In this document: positions 3,465 through 24,024 of the stretch, one piece after another
How the letters are laid out: every line of letters starts with the position of its first letter
Numbering within the stretch: position 1 is the stretch's first letter
Source of the DNA: Candidatus Zixiibacteriota bacterium
Lineage (GTDB): Bacteria; Zixibacteria; MSB-5A5; GN15; FEB-12
Reading direction: 5' to 3'
NCBI GenBank assembly: GCA_024276275.1
Contig: JAJRXM010000019.1
Coordinates: 1-59,441, forward strand
DNA: 59,441 nt
The notes under the pieces: generated by a model
The model's database searches: none
The model's input: the letters and a program-made list of their open reading frames with translations, nothing else
Told to the model about the DNA's origin: nothing
Program-made: the position numbers and the translations under genes

Positions 3465-6400
3465 ATGCGATTCTTAACTAGTTTCATTTTAACCACACTG
3501 ATATTAATCTCTACAAGTTCGGCACAACCTGTCGGAGACATTTCATTAGGTCAAATTATAGGGAATTCATACGGTGATACTGTCGGACTCGGTCCTTTAT
3601 CTTTTAATTTTAATTATACCGTTGGTTCTTCAAGCGATACTATTAAAGGTATTACTAATGGATTTCGGATATATTCTCCCGACGGTGCTACTTGGGAAAA
3701 CCTATACGGTGATACAATAAACGGTTTTGGCGGTTCAGTATTTGATTTAGTATTTTCAATTGACAGTTTTAGTACTGACGGTATCGGGAGCGATACCTTA
3801 GGTTTTGGTGGTGCCGTAATGTTAAACCCGGGAATGCAACCCGGATTTTCACAAGAAATTATTTCTATAAATTTGGAATTTCAAATTGAGGATAACGGTA
3901 AAACAATTTGTATTGATTCATCTTTCTACCCTCCAACCGGAACTTGGTTGTGGTCATCCGGTTTTAATAATTCCGGTGTTCCGAGTTGGGGAGGTCCATA
4001 CTGTTTTACAATAGATGCATGTTTCGGAGATCAAACAGATAGTGATGGAGACGGCATACCTGATATTTGTGATATCTGTCCAAATGATCCTAATAACGAT
4101 AGTGATGGAGATGGGTTCTGTGGTACAATAGGAGATATTTCATTAGGGCAAATAATTGGGAATGCATCCGGTGATACTGTTGGTATAGGTTCTTTATCAT
4201 TTAATTTCATTTTTACCGTTGATTCATTAAGTGATAATATTAAGGGATTTACTAACGGATTTCGGATTTACTCTCCGGATGGTGCTACTTGGGAAAACTT
4301 ATCCGGTGATACAATAAACGGTTTTGGCGGTTCAGTTTTCGATTTAGTATTATCAATAGATAATTTTAGTGTTGATGGAGTAGGATACGACTCTGTTGGA
4401 TTCGGTGGTGCTGTAATAATGAACCCGGGATTACCTGCCGGATATTCACAAGAAGTTATTTCTATAAACTTAGAATTACAAGCCGATGATCACGGCAAAA
4501 CAATTTGTATTGATTCTACTTATTATCCTCCTGCAGGATCTTGGCTGTGGTCAGCCGGTGCCGGTAAAACCAGTGCACCTAGTTGGGGAGGTCCATACTG
4601 TTTTACAATAGATGAGTGCGGAGGTGATCAACTAGATAGTGACGGTGACGGAATGCCGGATGTTTGTGATATATGTCCCAATGATCCCGATGATGATATA
4701 GACGGTGACGGTATCTGTGGTGATATCGATAATTGTCCGACTGTGAACAACCCGTCTCAACTAGATAGTGACAGTGACGGAATAGGTGATGTGTGTGATA
4801 CCTGTCCCAATGATCCCGATGATGATATAGACGGTGACGGTATCTGTGGTGATATCGATAATTGTCCGACTGTGAACAACCCGTCTCAACTAGATAGTGA
4901 CAGTGACGGAATAGGTGATGTGTGTGATACCTGTCCTAATGATCCTGACAATGATATAGACGGTGACGGTCTCTGTGGTGATATCGATAATTGTCCGACT
5001 GTGAACAACCCGTCTCAACTAGATAGTGACGGTGACGGAATAGGTGATGATTGCGATACCTGTCCTAATGATCCTGACAATGATATAGACGGTGACGGTC
5101 TCTGTGGCGATATTGATAATTGTCCGACAGTGTACAACCCGTCTCAACTTGATAATGATGATGATGGAGTCGGTGATGACTGTGATGCGTGTCCCGGTTT
5201 TATTGATAGTTTAGATGCTGATTCTGATAATATCCCCGATGATTGCGATGCCTGTCCTAATGACCCCGATAATGATATAGACAATGATGGGATATGTGGT
5301 GATTTAGATAACTGTCCCGACAACTTTAACCCAAATCAAGAGACTTTTACTTTGACCAGTCCGGCATCAAATGAAACTATTAGTGCGTTGACCAGTTTTA
5401 GTTGGACAACAATTTGTGCAAGCAGTTCTTATAATATTGTACTTTGTCAGGACTCAGCTCTTACGAATATTCTATGGTCAAAAGAATTAACTAATCCTAC
5501 TGTTGACTATGATGGTCAACCGTTACAACCGGAGACCAAGTATTTCTGGTCGGTTAGAGCATATTTAGGATCAGGATATTCTGACTTTGCCCCTTCATTC
5601 AGTTTTAATATAGCTGCACCGGCTGATACACTTGCTGCTCCAAGTTTAGTCTATCCCGCAAATAATGATTCATTGGTATTACCTGCGACGTTTACCTGGA
5701 GTCCGGTATTTGGTGCAGTAGGCTATGAGATTGAATATTCATTATCCAATACATTTTCATCAAAAGATTTTTCAACTACAAATGTAGGTGCTACAGTAAC
5801 TATTCCAAATGTCTTTACTATTGGTACTTCTGTTTATTGGAGAGTAAGAGCTATCGACAACTTTGGATTTGCAGGGCATAATAGCAGCACAAGTTTATTT
5901 TTTGTCAAAGAGACAATTTTAATTCCTAATGCTCCAACAACATTTGCTCCTGATGATTCAACCTATACTGATTCAGTTAAGTTTTATTGGAGTAATGAAA
6001 ATCAAGTAGAGTGTTATAATGTAGAATTTTCGACTGATTCACTTTATAATGACCCTGCCAGTAGTTTTTCAGTAGACGTCTGTACAGGTGATACATCTCT
6101 TTCATTGTACCAGACCAGGGGGGCGGTTATTTATTGGAGAGTGCAGTCTTGTAATTCAGCAGGATGTAGTCCATGGTCTCTAGGTATTGGTGGAAATAGC
6201 CTCGCAGCAGGTGGAGGTATCGGTTGTACCGGTTGCCCTGGTGAAAACAGCGTTAGCACAGGTCTTAATTGTATCGAAAATGCTCAAATAGATATAAATA
6301 AGAGTGTAGTAGAAATTGAATTAAATGATCTTTATTCGATGTCGGCATCTTTTTATGTCTCCTGTTTAGAAGATGTTCGAGTGGAATGGCTGATTGATGG

Positions 6401-8252
6401 GTTAGTTTTCTCTAACGTTAATTTTGAGATTATTGAAGATTCGATAATTACTGTCTATTCGCCATTACTTCCTACATCAGTTGTAGATTTTTACACAGTC
6501 AGTGTAAAAATTTATGCTTCCTCAGAATTTATAACTGTCGGTTCAGTAAATGTCGATGTTATAGCACCACCCTCTTTGCCTGTCGACCATTTAAATATTA
6601 CTACAAGCAAATCTTCATTATTGGCGGATGGTGTTTCAACTGCTTTGATAACAATCGAAGCGAGAGATAGCCTTGATAATGTAGTGTATTCTGATAACGG
6701 TAGAACTGTTGGAGTATCGTTAGGCGGTTTACTGGGAAATATTGACTCTCCTACAAAAACGACCGTAAATGGAATAACTATTTTCACATATACTACCGGA
6801 AACAGTCCCGGAATTGAAAATTTAACAGCATCTTCAAGCGGTTTACCTGATGCTACAGTTTTATTAACTTTAAATGCTACAACACTTATTGATCTTAAAA
6901 ATAACTACCTTGCTTTATCTAGCGAATTATTGGCATTAAAACTTGAAAATAATTTAGGGACACCATTATTAACGGATAATTATTCGCTTGGGACTTTAGC
7001 GGATTTCTATAATACAAGGATTGATATTGCAAGCCCGACTGATGCTGATACTTTATCATTAAGGCGAGCATTGCTTGGGTTAGATGTGATGTTACAGAAT
7101 TATAATCACTTGAATGCTCAATCGTATGAATATGATGATGACTTTACAACTACATATAGTCAGCAACACTCATCGTATGATATTTTGTCAAATCTTCAAT
7201 CATTTTTAACTCCGATAATTGCTTCTGCTGATATTATATATCAAGCTATACCGGATTTACCTGCGGAACTTCAGCAAAAATATCAAAACAGACTCTCAGA
7301 ATTATATAACAACCTTTCTCTGAGACTCAATATGGAATATATTTTACTTTCGGATTATCCAAGGAATGATCTTAAATCAGCTACTGATTATATGATGACA
7401 GCAATTAAAAATATGTTATTTTTTGGAATGTCTATGGAAACAGCGATTATTGATGAGCAAATAAGTGCTGATAACAATGATTATCTTTTAAGCAGATATT
7501 TTAACATTTCGCAACCTGTTATAGATAGTTTATCCGTTTGGACTGTCAATAATATTTATACCGGTACTTATGACGATGCGAAAGTAGCGTATGATTCATT
7601 ATTAGCTATTTTTAAGGGTAACGGAAATGTAGTCAGCGGTCGGTATAATAATTTAAAAATTGATTCCGTTAATAGCTATTATATTGATAAACTTAATACT
7701 ATTTCAAGTTTATCTGCCGAACAGAGAGTTGATAATGCTCTAATCATTTCCGGTGAAATACTGTCTGACAATTCATATTTTGACGGTATAAATCTTCTCG
7801 GTAACTATATGAGCAATATGAACTCTAATCTTTATAATTTAGCATCTGTTTCGTCCGGAGGACCTTCTCCTTCTTCTGCTGTTAATAAGAATTTACAAAG
7901 TAGTTTACTATCAAACTCTACAGCTGATTATCAGGTTGTAAATAAAAAACTGAGCAATCAAGTGTTAGAATCTTACTCGTTGATAGATAATACTTATGAA
8001 ACATTGACCAGAGAACTACTCAATAATCTCGGTAACTCTGACTATACCAATCTTCAAACAAATATGGATCTTATCGAACAGCATAATGAAGTTCTGACAC
8101 AGACTCTTAAAAATATATTTGGGATTGTTTATTCAAGTGCAAATAAGGCTAATAACACATTGACCGAATTCAATACTCTTTATAGAGATGTACTTAATTA
8201 TTATACTGAATCGTCTTATGCCAGAGGGTTGCTTGATTTGTACTTAGCGTAA
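3465..8252 (+). CDS. Giant secreted calcium-repeat protein, main part before an in-frame stop
   Basis: The start is supported by GGAGG at 3456-3460, four bases upstream of the ATG. Residues 1-20 form a signal peptide. Two homologous modules of about 160 residues follow, near residues 24-185 and 223-385, both beginning [11 protein letters not shown]. Residues about 389-623 are thrombospondin type-3-like Asp-rich calcium repeats ([17 protein letters not shown]), partly encoded by a 129-bp tandem repeat. Next come fibronectin-III-like modules (about 630-910), a short Gly/Cys-rich linker, an invasin/Big_1-like domain (about 1040-1140) and a long helical region. The frame stops at TAA 8250-8252, but the same frame continues sensibly to 8984 and ends in dockerin-like repeats, so the intact gene was probably 3465-8984. 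The protein is likely extracellular or surface bound; its ligand is unknown. Confidence 0.8.
4629..5144 (+). repeat. 129-bp tandem repeat, four units, inside the secreted-protein gene
   Basis: Units begin at 4629, 4758, 4887 and 5016 with an exact period of 129 bp (43 codons); a diverged continuation starts at 5145. Units 2 and 3 differ at only a few bases, and the second half of unit 1 matches unit 2 almost exactly. Each unit encodes Asp-rich calcium loops plus CPNDPD and [11 protein letters not shown] segments. Near-identity at DNA level suggests recent duplication or gene conversion, so copy number may vary between strains. Confidence 0.9.
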
Positions 8253-8504
8253 TTTAACGCAAATAGAACAGATGAAAATGCCAGAGTTAAAGCGATTAAT
8301 CAGGGTAATTTGGCATTAGCTCTTACAGAACAATTACAAACAAATTTAGATGCTATATTTGGAATTGTCTTTACTCTTGAATCGGCTCCAACTTTGTTAG
8401 TATCAAGTGATGCTATTTTAGCTTAAGATTTATTTGTAAATGTTGAATATACAATAAATTTCTGGATATTAAATTATGGTTCAGGTATTTCAGAAGGTAG
8501 TTAT

Positions 8505-8984
8505 GTGAAAATATTTGGTGATGGATCCTCAAGGATAATATCAGGAGACTCAACATTTATCGGATCGTTAGCTTCCGGTGACTCTGTTCAAGTTACTGCT
8601 ACTGTAGAATTTTATGAGCCGGTCGAAAGCAATAGAGTTAAGAAATCTACCAATACTTCTTCTGCGTTTGGATGGAGTTCTATTAGTATTCTGCCAAGTA
8701 ATAATAATGGTTTATCGGTTTCCACTATTAACTCATATGGCTACCAGATTTCTTGTTGTATCGGTATTCGGGGTAATGTTGATGGTGATATTCTTGATGA
8801 AATCGATATATCTGATTTAGTCATATTGTCAGCTTATTCTTTCCAAAATGGAACCGAACCTCCGTGCATGGAAGAAGCTGATATTGACGGTTCAGGAGGA
8901 TCTGTACCTATTGATATATCTGATATTGTATTACTAGTTGCATATATGTTCCAAGGTGGAGCAGCACCGGCACTCTGTCAGTAA
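8505..8984 (+). pseudogene. C-terminal part of the giant secreted protein, with dockerin-like repeats
   Basis: This segment is in the same frame as the gene starting at 3465. The frame is separated from it by TAA codons at 8250-8252 and 8424-8426, with coherent protein-like sequence on both sides and between them. It has a beta-rich domain, then a double dockerin-like ending: RGNVDGDILDEIDISDLVIL and, about 30 residues later, ADIDGSGG followed by IDISDIVLLVAYMF, each an Asp-rich calcium loop plus a helix. Dockerin domains bind cohesins in cellulosomes, but similar repeats end many secreted proteins of FCB candidate phyla without any cellulosome. The GTG at 8505 is an arbitrary start; I read the whole as the tail of one gene. 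Confidence 0.7.
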
Positions 8985-14560: not shown

Positions 14561-17500
14561 ATGAAAAGAACATTTGATTGTAAACGGCTATTATTACCTC
14601 TTCTTATAGTATTTACCTTAATATCCCCTCTTTCTGCTCAAGTCGACTGGGATGCTGAATTTGTTTTTGACCCGTTTCCATCTCCGTACCTTTCCGATTG
14701 GGAATCAAACGGCAATATCGGTTCAGTTGCGATTACGAATAATACTTCCTTATCTATTGATGCTATAATATTTTTCACATTAGAAGAATCAAGTCGCGGC
14801 GAGATAGCATCTGCTCAAAGCAATATATTTACATTCCCTCCCGGTTCTATTGAAAATATCTCTACCGATGATATTATAGATTATAACAGTTTAGATTATA
14901 ATACAGATTTAGAAGATTTAATTATTCGCACCGGAAGACTACCCGAAGGTGACTATACCGCTTGTATCGAATTACAATTGACAGACGGGACAGTCTTATT
15001 TACCGATATTTGTGTTTCGTTTTCGATTGTCTATCCCGACCCTCCGTATCTTATTTTTCCGTTCGATAGTGATACACTTATCGATTTGTTCCCTCTGTTT
15101 CAATGGACTCCTGTACAGGTACCGGTTGGTTTTCCTATACATTACTCTCTTAAAATTGTAGAAACGTATGATGGTCAAATTCCCTATCAGGCTTTGCAGG
15201 CAAATCCGGTTCAGTATGAAAATACATATTTAACTGAAACAAGCTTGCTGTATCCTTTAGATGCCTTAGAACTTATTAAAGGAAAACGATATTCGTGGGA
15301 AGTACAAGTTCTTGATGAGGTCAATACTCCTCCGTCTTCAAATAACGGTAAAAGTGAAATCTGGTCTTTTATATATGATCCCGATACAACAACACCTCCT
15401 GAAATGTATTCTGTTAGTGGAAGAGTTTGGTCAGCTGAGACAAAACAGGGAATTAGCGGAGCAGAATTACAATACCAACCTGTAGAAATACATGTTAACG
15501 GTACTGATACAAGTTGGATTCCGTACGGTGAGATAAAAACAAGTATATCATCGTATGGTATGAGGTCACACGTCGGCAGAACTGTTGACGGAAAATTTTC
15601 TTTTAATGATTGTGAAGAGGGAACATATTTTCATATTCTTGTTTCAGCAGAAAATTATAAAAACAAAACGATACAAGGCACAGAGTATTATTTACGTGAT
15701 AACATAACAAGTCTAAATATAGAATTAGAGCTTGAACCTCCCGGGAATAAAACTATTTCCGGTAAAGCAGTAGATTTCTTTACGAATAAACCTTTAGCAA
15801 ACCAAACAATTGTTTATCATCAAGTTCGAAAAGTATCTAATTCGTTTATTGAGCAAAATTTAAAAAAATTAGAGACTATAACTGATGATGAAGGAAACTT
15901 TAGTTTTACTAAAACTGCTGACTCATCATATTTTTCTCTTCGTACCGACGAGACACCTACTCACATATCAAAGTTGGATATTGGCAACCATATGTATCAG
16001 AACGGAGATATCGATTCGGTTCTATTTTTAATATCTCCAAAAGCAGGTGGAATTGAGGGTTATGTTGTATCAACACTGGGTGGGGATACTACTTATGTGA
16101 AAGATGCTAAAGTTGTATTTGCTAAAGTCTATACTGCACAAATTAAAGAAACTACAACTTCTTATTTTACAATGTTTGGGAAACGTCTTGGTGAACAAAC
16201 AAAATCTGAGACGAAATCAGTAACAAAGTATTCCGGTCAGAAAATTTCTGTACAGACAGATGAAAACGGTTATTTTATTTGTGATAATATCCAGCCGGAA
16301 TTTAATGTCACTTTAGATGAAAGCTCATATCGTGCCGGTATAGTACGTAGAGAAACTAAACAAGAACTAATTAGCTTTACCGATAAAAAACTAACTATCA
16401 CAGTAGAACATTCTCAATATGATAAGTATGTTGCTCCTGATTCTATCGACTATATCATGGGTGTGATTACTGATGTAGGCACTCATGTTCTAGCTTCAAA
16501 AATAGGTTCTGTAACAGGTCAAATTGTTAGTACCGAAGGACCTGTTGAAAATGCGGTTGTACGATTATTCAAACAGGGTGAGTACCTTATTGATTCTCTT
16601 TCACCATCAAGCGATTCAGGTGCTTGGGGGGGAGCAGCAGAAGCCGGTAATTCGTTTGCTTCAGGTGCGAGTAATGCGTCCGGCACCTATCTGTTAGGTA
16701 ATATCCCAATTAACAATCCGAATCAGGTAAGTGATGAATACATAATGGAGGTAACAGCTGACGGTTATTATAAGCAAGTCACAGAACTTCGATTAACAGA
16801 GAATGGTCAGCTCATTAGAAAAAATTTCACATTAGCAGATAAACCGTCAATCGTTTCAGGCCAGGTACAACTATTTTCCGGTTCTTCTGTATCGGGTGCC
16901 AGGGTTGTACTCTCTAAAAAGATTGATATCAAAGTCGAAGAGTTGAATTTAGATTACAAAAATGTATTTATCACAACGCACTACACTCTGACCGACGGTT
17001 CTGGAAATTATTCGTTTAGTGACGTTCCAAAAGGAACGTATAAAATTACATCTGTGACACCGCAAAATATTAAAGCAGTTTCTGACTCGTTTGCTGTAGC
17101 CGGTGGACGTACTATAATTATTCCATTAGTTACAAAATCTCAAAAAGGCTCATTGGCGGGTGTGGTGAAGTCATCAAACGGAAACCCATTGTCAAATGTT
17201 GTCATAAAATCAGAAAGTCTACCGTCACTCTTTATAACTACAAATATTAAAGGTGAGTTTAAACTAAAAAAGGTTCCGTCAGGCAAGATGGATCTCATAC
17301 TGACGCGCTTTAATCATACCGATACTACTGTTGAAGTTGATGTACCTGTTGATACTTCAGAATTTGATGACCTTCTGTCAAAAGAGGGAGATGCTGACAA
17401 AGTTGAAATTATCATGGAACTACTCACCGGCACCTATAAAATAAAAGTAGTTGATATGGCTTCCAATTCCTCTCTTGCTAACATGGAAGTTTCACTTGGT

Positions 17501-18430
17501 AAGGAATCAAAAACTACAAATTCTTCAGGGATGGTTACATTTAAAGATATCGGTGTCGGTCGTCAAGAGTTAAAAGTATCACCGCCTGAATCTGATACCT
17601 ATGATAAAGACTATGTACCTTTCTCTTCAAAAGTGACAGTTAATGTCGGTCTAAACAGCTTAAAGACTATCGAACTTGTTCCCGGAGCCAGAATGTCCGG
17701 TAAAGTTGTAGATGTTAGCGGAGGAAAAGGGATTGGCTCAGTTGCGGTTCATATAGACGGTAATAAAGATATAAAAGCTAAAACCGCTAAAGACGGTACT
17801 TTTACGCTGAAGAATCTACCTGCGGGAAAACCTATTACCTTGGTAGCACAAAAACCGGGTTATAAAATAGCAAGACTTTCAAAAAACTGGTCGATAACTG
17901 CCGGTGACCATATTAAAAATGTTACGGTCAAAATGGAAGAGTCACCGGTTGATTCAATCTTTGGCTTTGCCATAGTTCTTGATTCGATGACAAAAGCAAG
18001 CGGGAACAATAACTATCTTACCGGTTCTCTTATACAAATTAAGAACTCGTTCGGCTTAAGTTTCAAGGATAAAGAGGTCGAACTGCGTTTTATAAAACTA
18101 CTTGTAGATGAAAACTACAAACCGATTAAAGATAGTTTTAATCTGGAAGTAAAAGAACTTGATGTAACTGTTTTCGGTTTTGAAGGCAATATGCAGCATA
18201 AGAACGGTCTTAAAGTTGAATGGATAGATTCCCTCTCTGTAGGACGGATAGTCGGTGATATTACAATCATGGATGCTACATCGCTTATATTCCCGGAAAC
18301 TAAACTGGGAAATCTGAAAATTCCAAAAAAGAAAACACCAACTTTTGGTCGGATGGTGTTAATAGGTCTTTACAAAAATTCGGGCTTACAGCTACCGACA
18401 CAGAATTACAGGCAACATTTAAAGGGGTAA
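14561..18430 (+). CDS. Giant surface protein with carboxypeptidase-regulatory-like repeats (TANFOR-like), N-terminal part before a frameshift
   Basis: A signal peptide (ending PLSAQ) is followed by an N-terminal region with LPEGDYTACIEL and PYLIFPFDSDTL...PLFQWTPV patterns. I associate these with large Bacteroidota surface proteins often labelled TANFOR-domain. From about residue 285 to 1100 come roughly eight repeats of carboxypeptidase-regulatory or CnaB-like beta-sandwich modules, each starting with a SG(R/K/Q)V-type strand, for example YSVSGRVWS, TISGKAVDF, PSIVSGQVQ and ARMSGKVVD. The frame ends at 18430 in an unlikely tail. The natural continuation is in the neighbouring frame, so the full gene is probably 14561-20244, about 1,890 codons. 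It is likely an extracellular or outer-membrane-anchored fibre or scaffold acting with the two downstream genes. Confidence 0.75.
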   Translation: MKRTFDCKRLLLPLLIVFTLISPLSAQVDWDAEFVFDPFPSPYLSDWESNGNIGSVAITNNTSLSIDAIIFFTLEESSRGEIASAQSNIFTFPPGSIENISTDDIIDYNSLDYNTDLEDLIIRTGRLPEGDYTACIELQLTDGTVLFTDICVSFSIVYPDPPYLIFPFDSDTLIDLFPLFQWTPVQVPVGFPIHYSLKIVETYDGQIPYQALQANPVQYENTYLTETSLLYPLDALELIKGKRYSWEVQVLDEVNTPPSSNNGKSEIWSFIYDPDTTTPPEMYSVSGRVWSAETKQGISGAELQYQPVEIHVNGTDTSWIPYGEIKTSISSYGMRSHVGRTVDGKFSFNDCEEGTYFHILVSAENYKNKTIQGTEYYLRDNITSLNIELELEPPGNKTISGKAVDFFTNKPLANQTIVYHQVRKVSNSFIEQNLKKLETITDDEGNFSFTKTADSSYFSLRTDETPTHISKLDIGNHMYQNGDIDSVLFLISPKAGGIEGYVVSTLGGDTTYVKDAKVVFAKVYTAQIKETTTSYFTMFGKRLGEQTKSETKSVTKYSGQKISVQTDENGYFICDNIQPEFNVTLDESSYRAGIVRRETKQELISFTDKKLTITVEHSQYDKYVAPDSIDYIMGVITDVGTHVLASKIGSVTGQIVSTEGPVENAVVRLFKQGEYLIDSLSPSSDSGAWGGAAEAGNSFASGASNASGTYLLGNIPINNPNQVSDEYIMEVTADGYYKQVTELRLTENGQLIRKNFTLADKPSIVSGQVQLFSGSSVSGARVVLSKKIDIKVEELNLDYKNVFITTHYTLTDGSGNYSFSDVPKGTYKITSVTPQNIKAVSDSFAVAGGRTIIIPLVTKSQKGSLAGVVKSSNGNPLSNVVIKSESLPSLFITTNIKGEFKLKKVPSGKMDLILTRFNHTDTTVEVDVPVDTSEFDDLLSKEGDADKVEIIMELLTGTYKIKVVDMASNSSLANMEVSLGKESKTTNSSGMVTFKDIGVGRQELKVSPPESDTYDKDYVPFSSKVTVNVGLNSLKTIELVPGARMSGKVVDVSGGKGIGSVAVHIDGNKDIKAKTAKDGTFTLKNLPAGKPITLVAQKPGYKIARLSKNWSITAGDHIKNVTVKMEESPVDSIFGFAIVLDSMTKASGNNNYLTGSLIQIKNSFGLSFKDKEVELRFIKLLVDENYKPIKDSFNLEVKELDVTVFGFEGNMQHKNGLKVEWIDSLSVGRIVGDITIMDATSLIFPETKLGNLKIPKKKTPTFGRMVLIGLYKNSGLQLPTQNYRQHLKG

Positions 18431-18627
18431 AACTTGCTGTTGATTATACCAAAACAAATATCGATTCAACAGGGCTTCATTTTTGTGGTTCGATAACATT
18501 TAAAGAAAAATTCAAGCTCGGTTTTAAAAATCTGCATTTAGCTAATATTGAAGATGGGTTCCTTGAACTAAAAGGTATTACGATAGTAACAGACCCTGTT
18601 CCAAAAATTCCGTTTGGGGTCTTTACG

Positions 18628-20244
18628 GTGTATGACAGTTCCGCAACATGGGATGAAACAGGTTTTTGGATTAACGGTTCTTTAAAAATGAACAAACTTT
18701 CTGATAGGGAGTTTGGTATTAAAGATGTTCATGTATCAAAAAAAGGAGACTTCCTTTCAGCAACTGTTACCGCTGAAGGAGATAATGGTGAAATATCTGT
18801 CCATGGACAAAAATTTGCAATTGAAGAGCTGACTTTTGGAACAGATAACTGGGATGTTGATACTGTTGCGAATGTACAATATCTCATGATGTCGGGCAAG
18901 TTGACACTCACAGGTCTTGACAAACCGGTCGAATTTCAAAATCTTAAATATACCGAAACAGATATTTTCACCGGTACAATTGCTTTCAACCAGACAAAAA
19001 CATTTAAGAAAATTGTTTCTGTTAGCTTAGAAGAGTTAGTTTTTGGTATTCATGATACAAAAGGAAAATTTGTTTCTATAAGCGGTGGCGTACAATTTGG
19101 TGCGATCAAAGGTGTCAAAATGGAAGCAAGTAATCTGCAATTCTATTATGACGGTAAAGTCGCTGTTGATGAAATAGGGCTTGGATTTTTTGCGGGTCCT
19201 ACAGAAGTAGAGATTAGAGTCCGTTGGACAGATACAGAGTTTGAAGGTGAGGGGCTTTTACAGGTAAAACCGGTCATCACAGTTGGTGCAGAATTTAGAT
19301 ATGCCGGCACAAAAGACTGGTGGGTAAAAATTATTTCCGGAACTCGAATACCTGTCGGTCAGGTAGATATTGTACAGACGACCGGTGGAGTCGGACTCAA
19401 AGATGACACCTGGAGGTTTATGATTGGCGTAACTATTGCTCCTAAAGGTGCCGATAAAGGTCTTTCAATGGCAGTAGAAGTAAATGTATACCTAAGTCCG
19501 GTGGGTGTTATTCTTACAGGTGCTGCCGATGTTGAAGTAGCAAATTCCTTAAATGTCGGTCATGGTGAATTCAAATTTGATATAACAAAAGGTGAACTCG
19601 ACGGATTTATTATATATGTCTATGACAATGATGCATTAACTATGAACGGACAAATAAACTTTGGGGCTCATTTTGGTAAGTTTTGGTATATCCATGGAAC
19701 TGCCGATGTTAATTTCTTAGAGTTCTTTTCAGCCCGTGGACTTGTTGTCGCAGCACAAAATTGGCCGTACTACTATAACGGTGAAACAAAAATAGTAAAC
19801 GGTCTTATCATAGATATCTCCCGTAATTTTAGTATAGGCGGAGACTATGGGGTCGTTGGCTGGGGGCTTAGTTTTAATCAGCATGGGGCAATGGAAGCGA
19901 CCTGGTCGGGTAATTTCAGAGGTCAAATTGATATGAATGGCAGAGCTCATGCATATATCGGCTTTGACCCGTTTGGTACTCTTAAGGCAACCGGGGGCTT
20001 TGACCTTGGTGCGGGATTAAGTAAAACAGGTTCTGAATGGAGAGCAAACGGATATGGACGTTTTTCTTTGGCAGCATCGGTGGGAAGTTGTAATGCAGGA
20101 TGTAATTCCCTTTGTGCCGGTTGTGCTAAAAAAGTATTGGGTGTTTGTGTCTGGCCGAAATTTGGCGGTAAAGTATGTGTCGGTTTGAAAGCAGATGTTA
20201 AGTTCTCAAGTAGAACAGGTACTGATTTTAGAGTGAGTTTCTAA
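18628..20244 (+). CDS. C-terminal part of the giant surface protein, beta-repeat and Cys-rich end
   Basis: The GTG at 18628 is only the first possible initiator; the same frame is coherent upstream from about 18343 (SLQKFGLTATDTELQATF), so this is the displaced end of the gene starting at 14561. The junction lies near 18320-18345, next to an A6 run at 18325-18330. The product is a long alternating beta-structure (FAIEELTFG, VQFGAIKGVKMEASNLQFYY) resembling stacked or fibrous sheets. The last 60 residues are Cys-rich (CNAGC, CAGC, GVCVWPKFGGKVC) and may form a disulfide-locked cap. The TAA overlaps the next ATG by one base (TAATG). Confidence 0.75.
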   Translation: MYDSSATWDETGFWINGSLKMNKLSDREFGIKDVHVSKKGDFLSATVTAEGDNGEISVHGQKFAIEELTFGTDNWDVDTVANVQYLMMSGKLTLTGLDKPVEFQNLKYTETDIFTGTIAFNQTKTFKKIVSVSLEELVFGIHDTKGKFVSISGGVQFGAIKGVKMEASNLQFYYDGKVAVDEIGLGFFAGPTEVEIRVRWTDTEFEGEGLLQVKPVITVGAEFRYAGTKDWWVKIISGTRIPVGQVDIVQTTGGVGLKDDTWRFMIGVTIAPKGADKGLSMAVEVNVYLSPVGVILTGAADVEVANSLNVGHGEFKFDITKGELDGFIIYVYDNDALTMNGQINFGAHFGKFWYIHGTADVNFLEFFSARGLVVAAQNWPYYYNGETKIVNGLIIDISRNFSIGGDYGVVGWGLSFNQHGAMEATWSGNFRGQIDMNGRAHAYIGFDPFGTLKATGGFDLGAGLSKTGSEWRANGYGRFSLAASVGSCNAGCNSLCAGCAKKVLGVCVWPKFGGKVCVGLKADVKFSSRTGTDFRVSF

Positions 20245-22319
20245 TGAGTGGAGAATATAATAGAATGAGTAAAAGTAAATTCAAATTTTTTATAGTATAC
20301 CTAATTGTTATTATTTTAACTGTGACTTCAAATGCTCAGGTTGATACAACTAGCACAGATTTACCGTTTCAAGTATTTGCATATTCAGCACCCAAGGGAA
20401 TAATGCTTGTAATTGTAGGTGACTGGATTATCCCTACTAAAGGGGATAACCTTTCAGGTTATAATATCTATAGAAAAGAGAATGAAAAAGATACGTTTAA
20501 GAAAATAACACCGTTTCCGCTTAAGGCATCATCTACATATTCTGATATGGTGGACAAAATTGGGCAGAGTTTAGACGGTATGTTTCCGATAGTAGGTGTT
20601 GAAGATTCCGCACAGTTTTGGCAGTTATTAGTTAGTCAAGATGAATCTATCGCGGTATGGGGAACTATGTTTAAAAAATTCCGTGAAGCGATGGGACAAC
20701 TTCTTTATGACTATGAGATTGAATCAGGGAAAACATATACATACGTTTGTACCAAAACAGATGCATCAGGGGTAGAGTCGGCATTCTCCTTAGAAATTTC
20801 AGCAACTTCCGGAACTCCTCTTTTTGAATTGTTAGGTCCGGTTGATGTTACAGCAGAGGCTAAAGATAATCAAGCGGTGATAACGTGGCATGTAAACGAA
20901 TTTGATTCAGCAGCTTTTTCATACAATATATATCGTGCTTATGATTCACTTGGACGATATACACGTTTGAACAGTGAAATGATAGTACCTATGTTCAATG
21001 ACGGAAACGAATCGGCAACCGAGATGAGTTTTGTTGATACTCTTATGAAAAACGGCAGAAAATATTATTACGCCGTTGTATCTGTAGACTATGCTGATAA
21101 TGAAAGCAGCAGAAATAATATCCTTTCTGTATTTGCTCAAGATACAAAAGCACCTGCAGTTCCAAAAAATATCAAATCTGAATCTGGTAAACTTGGTATT
21201 AGCATCTTATGGGATTTATCCCCCGAAGATGACATCGCAGGGTACGCATTGTATCGTTCAGTAGATGTTGACTCTGTATTTGAAAAAGTTCATACAGATT
21301 TACTTCCGCTAAATGTAAACAGATACGAGGATGTTACTGCTCAATCAGGTGATGAATATTTCTACCGCTTAACAGCAGTTGATCAGGCAGGTAATGAATC
21401 TGAGCAATCGGCAAATGTTTATGGGTTTTATATCGATCCTTCTCGTCCGTTACCGCCGATGAATTTAAAAGCTGAGGCAGATAGTTCTCAGATAACTCTT
21501 TCGTGGAGCAAAATTGAAAACAATGAAATTTTAGGTTATTATGTTTTTCGAACAAGCTCATACAAAGGTGAATTTTCACAGGTTTCAGATTTAATACCGA
21601 GAGAAGATACTCTTTGGACAGACACATCATCACTTTCATCATTAAGCACATATTATTACGCTATGAAATCCTCTACTTTAAACGGTAACTTTTCATACTA
21701 CAACGAAGCTGTTGCTGTAAAACCATTACCAACCGAGAGAGCCCTTCCAACTCCTCCCTCTGATTTTTATGGTTATGCCGATTATACCGGTGTGAGACTT
21801 CATTGGAAAATGCCGTTAGACAAATCTGTATATGGTTACAATATCTATCGAATTACAACTAGTGAGAGTTCTCTAGTGAAATTAAATGATTCACTTTTGA
21901 TATTCTCTACAACATCGTTTTTAGATAAGACAGCAAAAAAAAATCAAACATATTCTTATTATATTAAATCTGTTCATTTTGAAGGAATAGAAGGTAATGC
22001 ATCGCATGAAGTAGAAATAACACCTCTTGCAGCATCTCCTGAACCGCCAGATAATTTTCGTGCATTTGTTCAAAACGGTATTATTACTCTTAAGTGGAGT
22101 AAGATTCTGCTGGATGATATGAAAGGGTATAATATATACAAGCATACCGGGGATGGATTGCTTAAGAGAGTTAACAAAGAAATTATTGCATTAAACAATA
22201 CTGAATTTAAAGATGGTGATATAAGCTCTCAACAAAGATACTATTATTCTATATCTACAGTATCAATAGATAACCGAGAAAGTTTTCAATCGACAGCAAT
22301 AGATATTATGTCAAAATAG
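20244..22319 (+). CDS. Secreted multi-domain fibronectin type III protein
   Basis: The gene starts on the last base of the preceding stop; a second in-frame ATG at 20265 gives a tighter signal peptide (ending TSNAQ) and is an equally good start. The mature protein is built of about six fibronectin-III domains, recognisable by repeated Y(N/A)(I/L)YR and Y(Y/F)Y motifs: GYNIYRKE, SYNIYRAYD, GYALYRSVD, GYYVFRTS, GYNIYRITT, GYNIYKHTG. There is no catalytic domain and no type IX secretion tail that I can see. It sits between a giant repeat protein and an outer-membrane barrel with almost no spacing, so an extracellular structural or adhesive partner is the likely role. Confidence 0.8.
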   Translation: MSGEYNRMSKSKFKFFIVYLIVIILTVTSNAQVDTTSTDLPFQVFAYSAPKGIMLVIVGDWIIPTKGDNLSGYNIYRKENEKDTFKKITPFPLKASSTYSDMVDKIGQSLDGMFPIVGVEDSAQFWQLLVSQDESIAVWGTMFKKFREAMGQLLYDYEIESGKTYTYVCTKTDASGVESAFSLEISATSGTPLFELLGPVDVTAEAKDNQAVITWHVNEFDSAAFSYNIYRAYDSLGRYTRLNSEMIVPMFNDGNESATEMSFVDTLMKNGRKYYYAVVSVDYADNESSRNNILSVFAQDTKAPAVPKNIKSESGKLGISILWDLSPEDDIAGYALYRSVDVDSVFEKVHTDLLPLNVNRYEDVTAQSGDEYFYRLTAVDQAGNESEQSANVYGFYIDPSRPLPPMNLKAEADSSQITLSWSKIENNEILGYYVFRTSSYKGEFSQVSDLIPREDTLWTDTSSLSSLSTYYYAMKSSTLNGNFSYYNEAVAVKPLPTERALPTPPSDFYGYADYTGVRLHWKMPLDKSVYGYNIYRITTSESSLVKLNDSLLIFSTTSFLDKTAKKNQTYSYYIKSVHFEGIEGNASHEVEITPLAASPEPPDNFRAFVQNGIITLKWSKILLDDMKGYNIYKHTGDGLLKRVNKEIIALNNTEFKDGDISSQQRYYYSISTVSIDNRESFQSTAIDIMSK

Positions 22320-22335
22320 TGGAAAATTATAATTA

Positions 22336-24024
22336 ATGAATAGATATTATACAACAGTACTTTCGTTTGTCATTACAACGCTGTTTATCTCTGTTGTTTC
22401 AGCACAAACAGATACACAAATGAATGATAATTCTAACAAAACTGAATATATAAAACTTTCAGGTGATTTTGGTGTCTATGGTGAATTGTATTCAATCTCA
22501 GGACGGGAAAAAAGAAGACCGTCATCAACTGAAAGAATGTTTTTTAATCCGACTGTTTCATTTTATAATGCTTTGCAATTAGATTTTAAATTTGTATTCT
22601 CATCAGAAGGAAACTCATCTCGACAAGATATCAACCAACTTGATATCAATCCAAAGTGGAGTTGGGGTGAGATTCATGCCGGCGATTTTTCACTTTCTTA
22701 TTCTCCATTTACTGTATCAGGTATAAAAATTCGCGGTGGTTCATTTGACATTAATCCGGGTAAGTTTCGTTTGGCATCGTTTGGTGGTATTTCTCAGAGG
22801 GAAGTTATAACATTTAATAAACAACAAAGTTTTAAAAGAGAAATTTATGGCGGACTTATAGGGCTGGGTAAAAGCAACAAATCTCATATACAACTTACTG
22901 TTTTAAAAGCAGAGGATATTTTTAATACTGTTGAGAATATCATAATTGATACATCGGGTTTCTCAGACAGTTTGCTTGCTGACTCTACATCAATCCCAGA
23001 AGTTACACCTAAAGAGAATGTCGTTACCTCACTAAAAACAAGACTCGATATTTATAAAGGCAAGTTCGTTCTCAATACCGAAGTAAGCGGTTCAGCCTAC
23101 ACCAGAGACCTTGAGGCTACTGACTTAAATCCTGATGAGGTTCCTTCGGGTGTAAATGATATTTTTACGTTGAAAACAAGCTCGTCTTTTGATTTTGCTT
23201 ATAAGTCAGATCTAAAATTAAAATTTAAAAATATGACTATCACCGGGAAATATAAATTTATAGGCCCAGGATATGTATCGCTTGGAGTGGCATCGCTACA
23301 AAATGATGTAAAACTTATTGGAACCGGTTTTTCTTTCCGTCAAAAGAAGTTTATGTTACGCGGCAATGTTGACTTACAAAAAGATAATTTGATAAATCAA
23401 AAAATATATACTACTAATCGTAATAGATATAGTTTCAGTATTAATTACCGTATTTCCAGAAAATGGAATATGAATAATTCGTTGAATCTTTCAACAATGA
23501 AAAATGATGCGGTATCAGATGCTCTTCTGCTTGACTATACATCTATGGTTCTTCGCACCGGAAACCGATTGTCTCTTTCAAAAGGTATCGCCCGCTCTTT
23601 ATCGTTTGACTATACCTATCAAAACTCAAAAGATTCTAACCCTCTTCGGACAAGTTCTAAACTTAACTCACATTCGGGTTCAATCGGTATACAGCTTACT
23701 CTCTCAAAAAATATAAATATATCTCCTATGCTAAAAATTCTTTTAAATAAACAAGGTTTCTCAGAACAAAAAACTATTCAAACTTATTCGCTGTCAGGTC
23801 GGCATTATGCCAAACAAAAGAAACTGTCTACAAGTCTCCGGCTCTCATATTCAAAACAAGATGATTCTGATAATCTAAGAGGTTCTATACGAAGCAGATA
23901 CTCTGTTGAGAATTTTGGTTCAATCGGATTAGAAATTTCTTTCAATAAATTTACAACAGATTTACTTAACAGAACATCTTTCGACGAGTCGTTTATTAAG
24001 TTTACCTATAATAAATCATTTTAA
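22336..24024 (+). CDS. Outer-membrane beta-barrel protein
   Basis: A signal peptide (ending VVSAQ) precedes about 540 residues of amphipathic alternating strands, ending in an aromatic C-terminal residue (FIKFTYNKSF), as typical of barrels inserted by BAM. Examples of strands are FKFVFSSEGN, LKLKFKNMTITGKYKFIG and RYSFSINYRIS. There is no TonB plug motif that I can identify. The ATG is 16 bp after the stop of the fibronectin-III gene, so it should be cotranscribed. It is the likely membrane anchor or export channel for the two preceding proteins; this is inference from context. Confidence 0.75.
   Translation: MNRYYTTVLSFVITTLFISVVSAQTDTQMNDNSNKTEYIKLSGDFGVYGELYSISGREKRRPSSTERMFFNPTVSFYNALQLDFKFVFSSEGNSSRQDINQLDINPKWSWGEIHAGDFSLSYSPFTVSGIKIRGGSFDINPGKFRLASFGGISQREVITFNKQQSFKREIYGGLIGLGKSNKSHIQLTVLKAEDIFNTVENIIIDTSGFSDSLLADSTSIPEVTPKENVVTSLKTRLDIYKGKFVLNTEVSGSAYTRDLEATDLNPDEVPSGVNDIFTLKTSSSFDFAYKSDLKLKFKNMTITGKYKFIGPGYVSLGVASLQNDVKLIGTGFSFRQKKFMLRGNVDLQKDNLINQKIYTTNRNRYSFSINYRISRKWNMNNSLNLSTMKNDAVSDALLLDYTSMVLRTGNRLSLSKGIARSLSFDYTYQNSKDSNPLRTSSKLNSHSGSIGIQLTLSKNINISPMLKILLNKQGFSEQKTIQTYSLSGRHYAKQKKLSTSLRLSYSKQDDSDNLRGSIRSRYSVENFGSIGLEISFNKFTTDLLNRTSFDESFIKFTYNKSF

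Follow-up and report, generated by a model that had tools for sequence, protein, structure and literature searches.

The three adjoining genes studied here probably form a surface module in which a cognate outer-membrane barrel exports or anchors a giant protein that carries a matching N-terminal leader. Leader and barrel co-occurred strictly, the passengers behind the leader were exchanged from cassette to cassette, and both partners had homologs in another phylum. As the pair was constant and the passenger variable, we read leader and barrel as cognate. What is new here is this pair with its exchangeable passengers, and its reach into a class of toxins still in search of an export route.

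The window, i.e., the whole stretch of DNA analyzed, is a contig of 59,441 bp (C83) from a 3.39 Mb MAG (G000, 95% complete) of Candidatus Zixiibacteriota, a little-studied phylum. Its nearest named relatives were Candidatus Zixiibacteriota MAGs with the Dive100 label. The scan of named genomes used two short peptide patterns only; it returned four Zixibacteria relatives only and is uninformative on other phyla.

Layout of the three genes

The giant gene (14561–20244), the FnIII gene (20265–22319), and the barrel gene (22336–24024) adjoin each other on the + strand. The stop codon of the giant overlaps the first ATG of the FnIII gene (TAATG, ATG at 20244), and 16 bp lie between the FnIII stop (22319) and the barrel start (22336). 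Both the overlap and the 16-bp spacing of the preliminary description were thus borne out. The ATG at 20265 seems more likely to be the start of the FnIII gene than the alternative at 20244. By eye, the N-termini of all three proteins contained a signal-peptide-like segment with AQ at its end.

The same description had taken the three genes for a dedicated outer-surface system that brings its own membrane anchor. This was the right frame, as the genes travel together and the barrel is specific to the system. The labels "fiber" and "adhesin" that it gave to the system were guesses.

The giant protein and its conserved core

The giant begins with a Sec signal-peptide-like N-terminus identified by eye (14561–14641, + strand, MKRTFDCKRLLLPLLIVFTLISPLSAQ). 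The leader module of about 265 aa, common to all passengers of the system, is located at 14606–15397 (+) and scored 425 bits here with profile A6. It is followed by transthyretin-like (CarboxypepD_reg) repeats at 15413–17950 (+), matched by PF13620 in four stretches (E 3.4e-37, boundaries approximate). Identity to relatives supported a conserved C-terminal beta-rich core at 17945–20244 (+), which starts in the first frame and goes on in the second after about 18345. The Cys-rich end noticed earlier is present in it. Over 633 aa, the core was 83–86% identical to same-genus relatives and 54–55% identical to the copies of G049 and G052, which belong to another family. These 633 codons were the most conserved part of the giant.

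The C-terminal half of the giant had no match in Pfam or NCBIfam. PDB sequence searches with the core, barrel, and leader profiles returned no significant match, and an AlphaFold2 model of the core built with five sequences was unusable (pLDDT 35).

The three genes may instead make a surface adhesin or fiber, for which the barrel is merely a membrane holder and toxin delivery is unrelated beyond shared domains. Transthyretin-like and FnIII repeats are common in surface adhesins. Pfam and NCBIfam also gave no toxin domain match in the giant, and what follows it is the FnIII gene rather than a gene for immunity. Against this reading, no adhesin family was matched. Leader and barrel also go with the toxin-bearing Bacteroidota proteins described below; the module is thus not confined to adhesins. 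We consider the adhesin reading doubtful.

A break in the reading frame of the giant

No single ORF covered the giant in the window. An ORF at 14561–18430 (1,289 aa) was followed in a different frame by a stop-to-stop ORF at 18304–20244 (646 aa). DNA alignment with five relatives placed a one-base deletion at 18343–18347 (+). The window reads ACTTTTGG there (about 18343–18347) and the relatives read ACATTCTGG, coding PTFWSDGV. Intact frames of 1,896, 1,911, and 1,923 codons were found in G002, G052, and G049, respectively. The beta-repeat protein of roughly 1,890 residues in the preliminary description therefore held for the unbroken relatives (1,896–1,923 codons) and not for the window, which lacks a single ORF.

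A programmed −1 frameshift at A AAA AAG (18325–18331) was rejected as the site of the break, because past it the relatives keep the original frame (IPKKKTPTFW) and the base is lost only downstream. Stop-codon recoding was rejected as well; the in-frame stops (TAG in G003, TAA in a different gene of the window) showed no consistent codon.

In G003, of the same genus, the site of the window's deletion was intact, but an in-frame TAG occurred 43 codons on (L029 12452–12454, contig G003:C6). The TAG and the deletion are two independent breaks within about 43 codons. A second giant secreted protein, which combines thrombospondin-3 repeats with a dockerin-like end, is encoded at 3465–8984 of the window. 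Its frame is continuous except for two in-frame TAA codons (8250 and 8424), and it is apparently broken too.

Such breaks, in the giant and G003 and in the other window gene, would fit a pseudogene in the window organism and a decaying cassette. The rest of the sequence argues against decay. The copies of G002, G049, and G052 are intact, and the 633 codons past the break, with the same-genus identity given above, were constrained like the rest of the giant. Between same-genus species, omega was 0.08–0.10 for the N-terminal half and 0.05–0.07 for the C-terminal half, values that are approximate with synonymous sites near saturation. Purifying selection was seen on every part, with omega at about 0.05–0.15 where computable. 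Since the codons after the break stay conserved and constrained, the break is either very recent or an assembly error. The window's own copy may be newly inactive, or the assembly may be wrong at this point; decay of the cassette seems rather unlikely.

The FnIII protein and the barrel

The second gene (+; 20265–22319, or from 20244 with the alternative start) encodes a secreted FnIII-repeat partner protein (PF00041, E 1e-11). The third (22336–24024, +) encodes an outer-membrane beta-barrel with about 24 predicted strands in the AlphaFold2 model (pLDDT 64, pTM 0.54), which is the candidate partner of the leader. Neither Pfam nor NCBIfam had a model that matched the barrel. It has no domain resembling POTRA or any other known translocon part, and Pfam gave no plug or usher domain for it. 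No relative of the barrel was found in phage records.

When the barrel model was compared with the PDB by Foldseek, all matches were large barrels (MtrB, TonB-dependent receptors, and FimD), and the best was MtrB with a query TM-score of 0.48. Because these matches belong to several unrelated kinds, the fold leaves the choice between translocon and anchor undecided. Matches of many kinds would also be expected if the barrel were a generic transporter (resembling TonB-dependent receptors, MtrB, or ushers) that stands beside the giant by chance. We regard this as very improbable. The best TM-score was low for such an assignment, the model behind it was of middling confidence, Pfam returned neither plug nor usher domains, and the barrel occurred in just the nine genomes and four plasmids that carry the leader, as detailed below.

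Conservation of the cassette in Zixibacteria

We surveyed 132 Zixibacteria genomes. The order giant, FnIII, barrel was kept in four further genomes (G002, G003, G049, and G052). The three genes were spread over three contigs in G028, and contig C345 of G113 ended after the giant and FnIII genes. The preliminary description was to be given up if the three genes never co-occurred elsewhere; they did co-occur in further genomes, and the giant–FnIII–barrel cassette is well supported as a conserved unit.

The upstream kinase, lipoprotein-like, and redoxin-like genes of the window were not conserved neighbors of the related cassettes. The downstream MarR, MFP, and RND genes gave no conserved neighbor either, just generic RND relatives with 23–27% identity. 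As none of the flanking genes was conserved, the cassette is an island with sharp borders. The suggestion that the upstream lipoprotein and redoxin-like genes are accessories found no support, with no homolog near any related cassette.

The core of the giant was present in 7 of the 132 genomes, and full-length FnIII relatives (>500 bits) were present in the same seven. The FnIII profile alone was useless for co-occurrence, matching 128/132 genomes at E 0.001. A five-sequence profile detected the barrel in nine genomes, and a broader ten-sequence profile detected it in the same nine. The leader profile gave strong matches (280–432 bits) in exactly these nine genomes; the next-best matches were below 26 bits and covered the FnIII-like stretch only. 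The naive hypergeometric P of this overlap, which ignores phylogeny, was about 4e-14. The nine genomes come from two orders of the class and, within these, from three families; leader and barrel were both missing from most of the genomes related to them.

Beside the same barrel family, the passengers behind the leader differed. Type II cassettes contained leader giants of 3,892 aa (G112) and 3,902 aa (G113:C40) together with FnIII, TPR, and barrel genes, which follow the 3,902-aa giant of G113 in this order. A cluster in G017 had the same gene order as that of G113, with its leader at another contig end. The core of the window giant aligned with that of the type II giants (hhalign probability 81%, E 1e-5), which is suggestive of homology that we do not claim. 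On contig C159 of G113, a 1,209-aa leader protein with a right-handed beta-helix look (by eye) was encoded immediately 5' of the barrel.

Orphan leader proteins of about 1,500 aa with no adjoining barrel were found on G002:C56, G003:C34, G052:C2, and G049:C15 (L034, L035, L036, and L050). They shared 45–74% identity with one another, and a barrel was present elsewhere in those genomes. The orphan leader gene of G049 is divergent to the cassette. Contig C12 of G113 has a barrel homolog (L080 9883–11676) that had no leader neighbor within the stretch analyzed; it is located between a TetR-like/ABC-exporter-like cluster and other genes.

Leader and barrel on Bacteroidota plasmids

A tblastn search of 72,556 plasmids with the window leader matched two Bacteroidota plasmids. 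With the Emticicia and Persicobacter homologs as queries, barrel and leader both matched the same four plasmid records, from Emticicia, Persicobacter, Runella, and Bergeyella. The Zixibacteria and Bacteroidota barrel profiles aligned over 510 columns with an hhalign E of 4e-38; reversed-sequence, PorP-like, and SprA controls were negative (all E >0.03). The Zixibacteria leader profile aligned with the toxin-bearing leader proteins of Bacteroidota at an hhalign E of 3e-26 (reversed control 0.42), and hmmsearch of the leader gave 4e-13 to 2e-23 for most of the toxin-type plasmid proteins.

The barrel gene adjoined the leader gene in Runella and Emticicia. In Emticicia, the barrel was followed by a 2,719-aa leader protein with a C-terminal WHH nuclease (Pfam 5.5e-11) and then by an SMI1/KNR4 immunity-type gene. 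The two leader proteins of Persicobacter are nearly identical in the middle and differ at the C-terminus; one C-terminus resembled the nuclease end of the Emticicia protein by eye. A toxin-type deaminase was encoded within the Bergeyella cluster. The Runella cluster is the window's nearest match outside the phylum; its adjacent genes encode the barrel, a leader giant with no recognized toxin, and an FnIII-like protein. The similarity between the window core and the C-terminus of the Runella giant was weak (hhalign probability 22%, E 1e-3), and homology is not claimed.

The Bergeyella porcorum plasmid (L122 and L126) carried at least three leader proteins, toxin-type deaminase genes, and many short split ORFs. 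These split ORFs may reflect sequencing errors or decay.

Relation to the type IX secretion system

The window genome contained SprA (E 7e-134, complete-looking, 2,040 aa) and 61 Por_Secre_tail matches, from which an active T9SS is predicted in Zixibacteria. The giant and its relatives might be T9SS cargo that passes through SprA, with the barrel as a docking or anchoring partner to which the leader binds during or after export. The barrel would then play a role modeled on the SprF/PorP-type barrels thought to serve SprB-like adhesins. A SprB-repeat or T9SS-tail protein was encoded within the same cluster in Emticicia and Runella, and T9SS was proposed for the related TANFOR toxins, near which its substrates are enriched (PMC7073777). 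As T9SS was found in every Zixibacteria genome tested, T9SS transport with barrel docking is a serious rival. The presence of SprA is itself uninformative on this rival, because 17/17 tested Zixibacteria genomes had it.

Other evidence counted against T9SS cargo. The preliminary description had seen no type IX tail, and indeed the giant, the FnIII protein, and the barrel had no tail match in Pfam or NCBIfam; neither a type A nor a type B tail was found on any leader protein scanned. The barrel matched neither the PorP-like proteins nor SprA in profile comparison, nor any Pfam or NCBIfam model. We think it somewhat unlikely that the giant travels this way.

Proposed leader–barrel module

In the module that we favor, the giant, the FnIII protein, and the barrel would enter the periplasm via Sec, as their signal-peptide-like N-termini suggest. 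The barrel would insert into the outer membrane, and this cognate barrel would recognize the N-terminal Ig/FnIII-like leader of the giant. It would then export the giant across the outer membrane or anchor it there, and the FnIII protein may serve as an accessory between the two. We infer physical leader–barrel binding, the direction of transport, and a surface location of the giant; the barrel may act as a translocon, an anchor, or a T9SS docking partner. The passenger is exchangeable. Here it consists of the transthyretin-like repeats plus the Cys-ended beta core, with no recognizable toxin. Other cassettes have a giant of 3,900 aa or a beta-helix-like protein in this place, and in Bacteroidota the passenger can end in a nuclease toxin.

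TANFOR (TIGR02542) is a Bacteroidetes polymorphic toxin class and almost exclusive to that group (Jana, Salomon and Bosis 2020, PMC7073777). Export of its members by T9SS was hypothesized there, with SprB and Por_Secre_tail domains enriched nearby, and experiments were called for. That study analyzed the TANFOR neighborhoods with conserved-domain libraries only, and its text does not mention a barrel. Having no Pfam or NCBIfam model match, the barrel described here would be invisible to such an analysis. Because it co-occurs with the leader in Zixibacteria and in Bacteroidota, where leader proteins can carry antibacterial-type toxins, we regard the barrel as a good candidate for the partner, so far missing, that exports or anchors the TANFOR-like toxin class. 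It is one specific gene whose deletion would directly test the question of TANFOR export. In Zixibacteria, the leader class also comes with passengers other than toxins; this suggests that the system is a chassis for display in general and not one for toxins only.

A bolder proposal, which we put forward only tentatively, is that the leader and the library-invisible barrel of about 24 strands constitute a new two-partner secretion route that has no relation to Omp85 and does not depend on T9SS. Its cargo would be TANFOR-like toxins in Bacteroidota and, in Zixibacteria, giants free of toxins.

Comparison with known systems

The leaders resemble TANFOR proteins in several ways: an Ig/FnIII-like leader after the signal peptide, very large size, FnIII domains nearby, and T9SS hosts. 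The Bacteroidota relatives also have C-terminal nuclease or deaminase toxins and immunity-type genes; the window differs in having neither. The window leader had no TIGR02542 match at E 0.001. None of the 132 Zixibacteria genomes exceeded the curated cut-off (67 bits), the best score being 25.9 bits inside the G028 leader with no match in the window genome, and the Bacteroidota plasmid leaders were likewise below it. The leaders are therefore termed TANFOR-like, not TANFOR members.

SprB/SprF systems also combine a giant surface protein with a neighboring outer-membrane barrel in a T9SS organism. They differ from the cassette, which had no type B tail and no PorP/SprF model match; profile comparison of the barrel with the PorP-like Persicobacter protein gave an E of 0.29. 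A likeness to Slam-type systems is the TPR protein encoded directly 5' of the barrel in the type II cassettes (G017, G112, and G113). In these cassettes, however, TPR and barrel are separate genes, and the window cassette has no TPR gene.

FhaC-type transporters have 16 strands, whereas the window barrel has about 24 predicted strands and no Omp85/POTRA match in Pfam. The leader likewise had no match to the haemagglutination (TPS) domain of two-partner secretion. In outline, the cassette nevertheless resembles two-partner secretion (FhaB/FhaC and the CDI pair CdiA/CdiB): a giant exoprotein bears a leader at its N-terminus, a dedicated outer-membrane barrel is encoded next to it, and the passengers are exchangeable and sometimes toxic.
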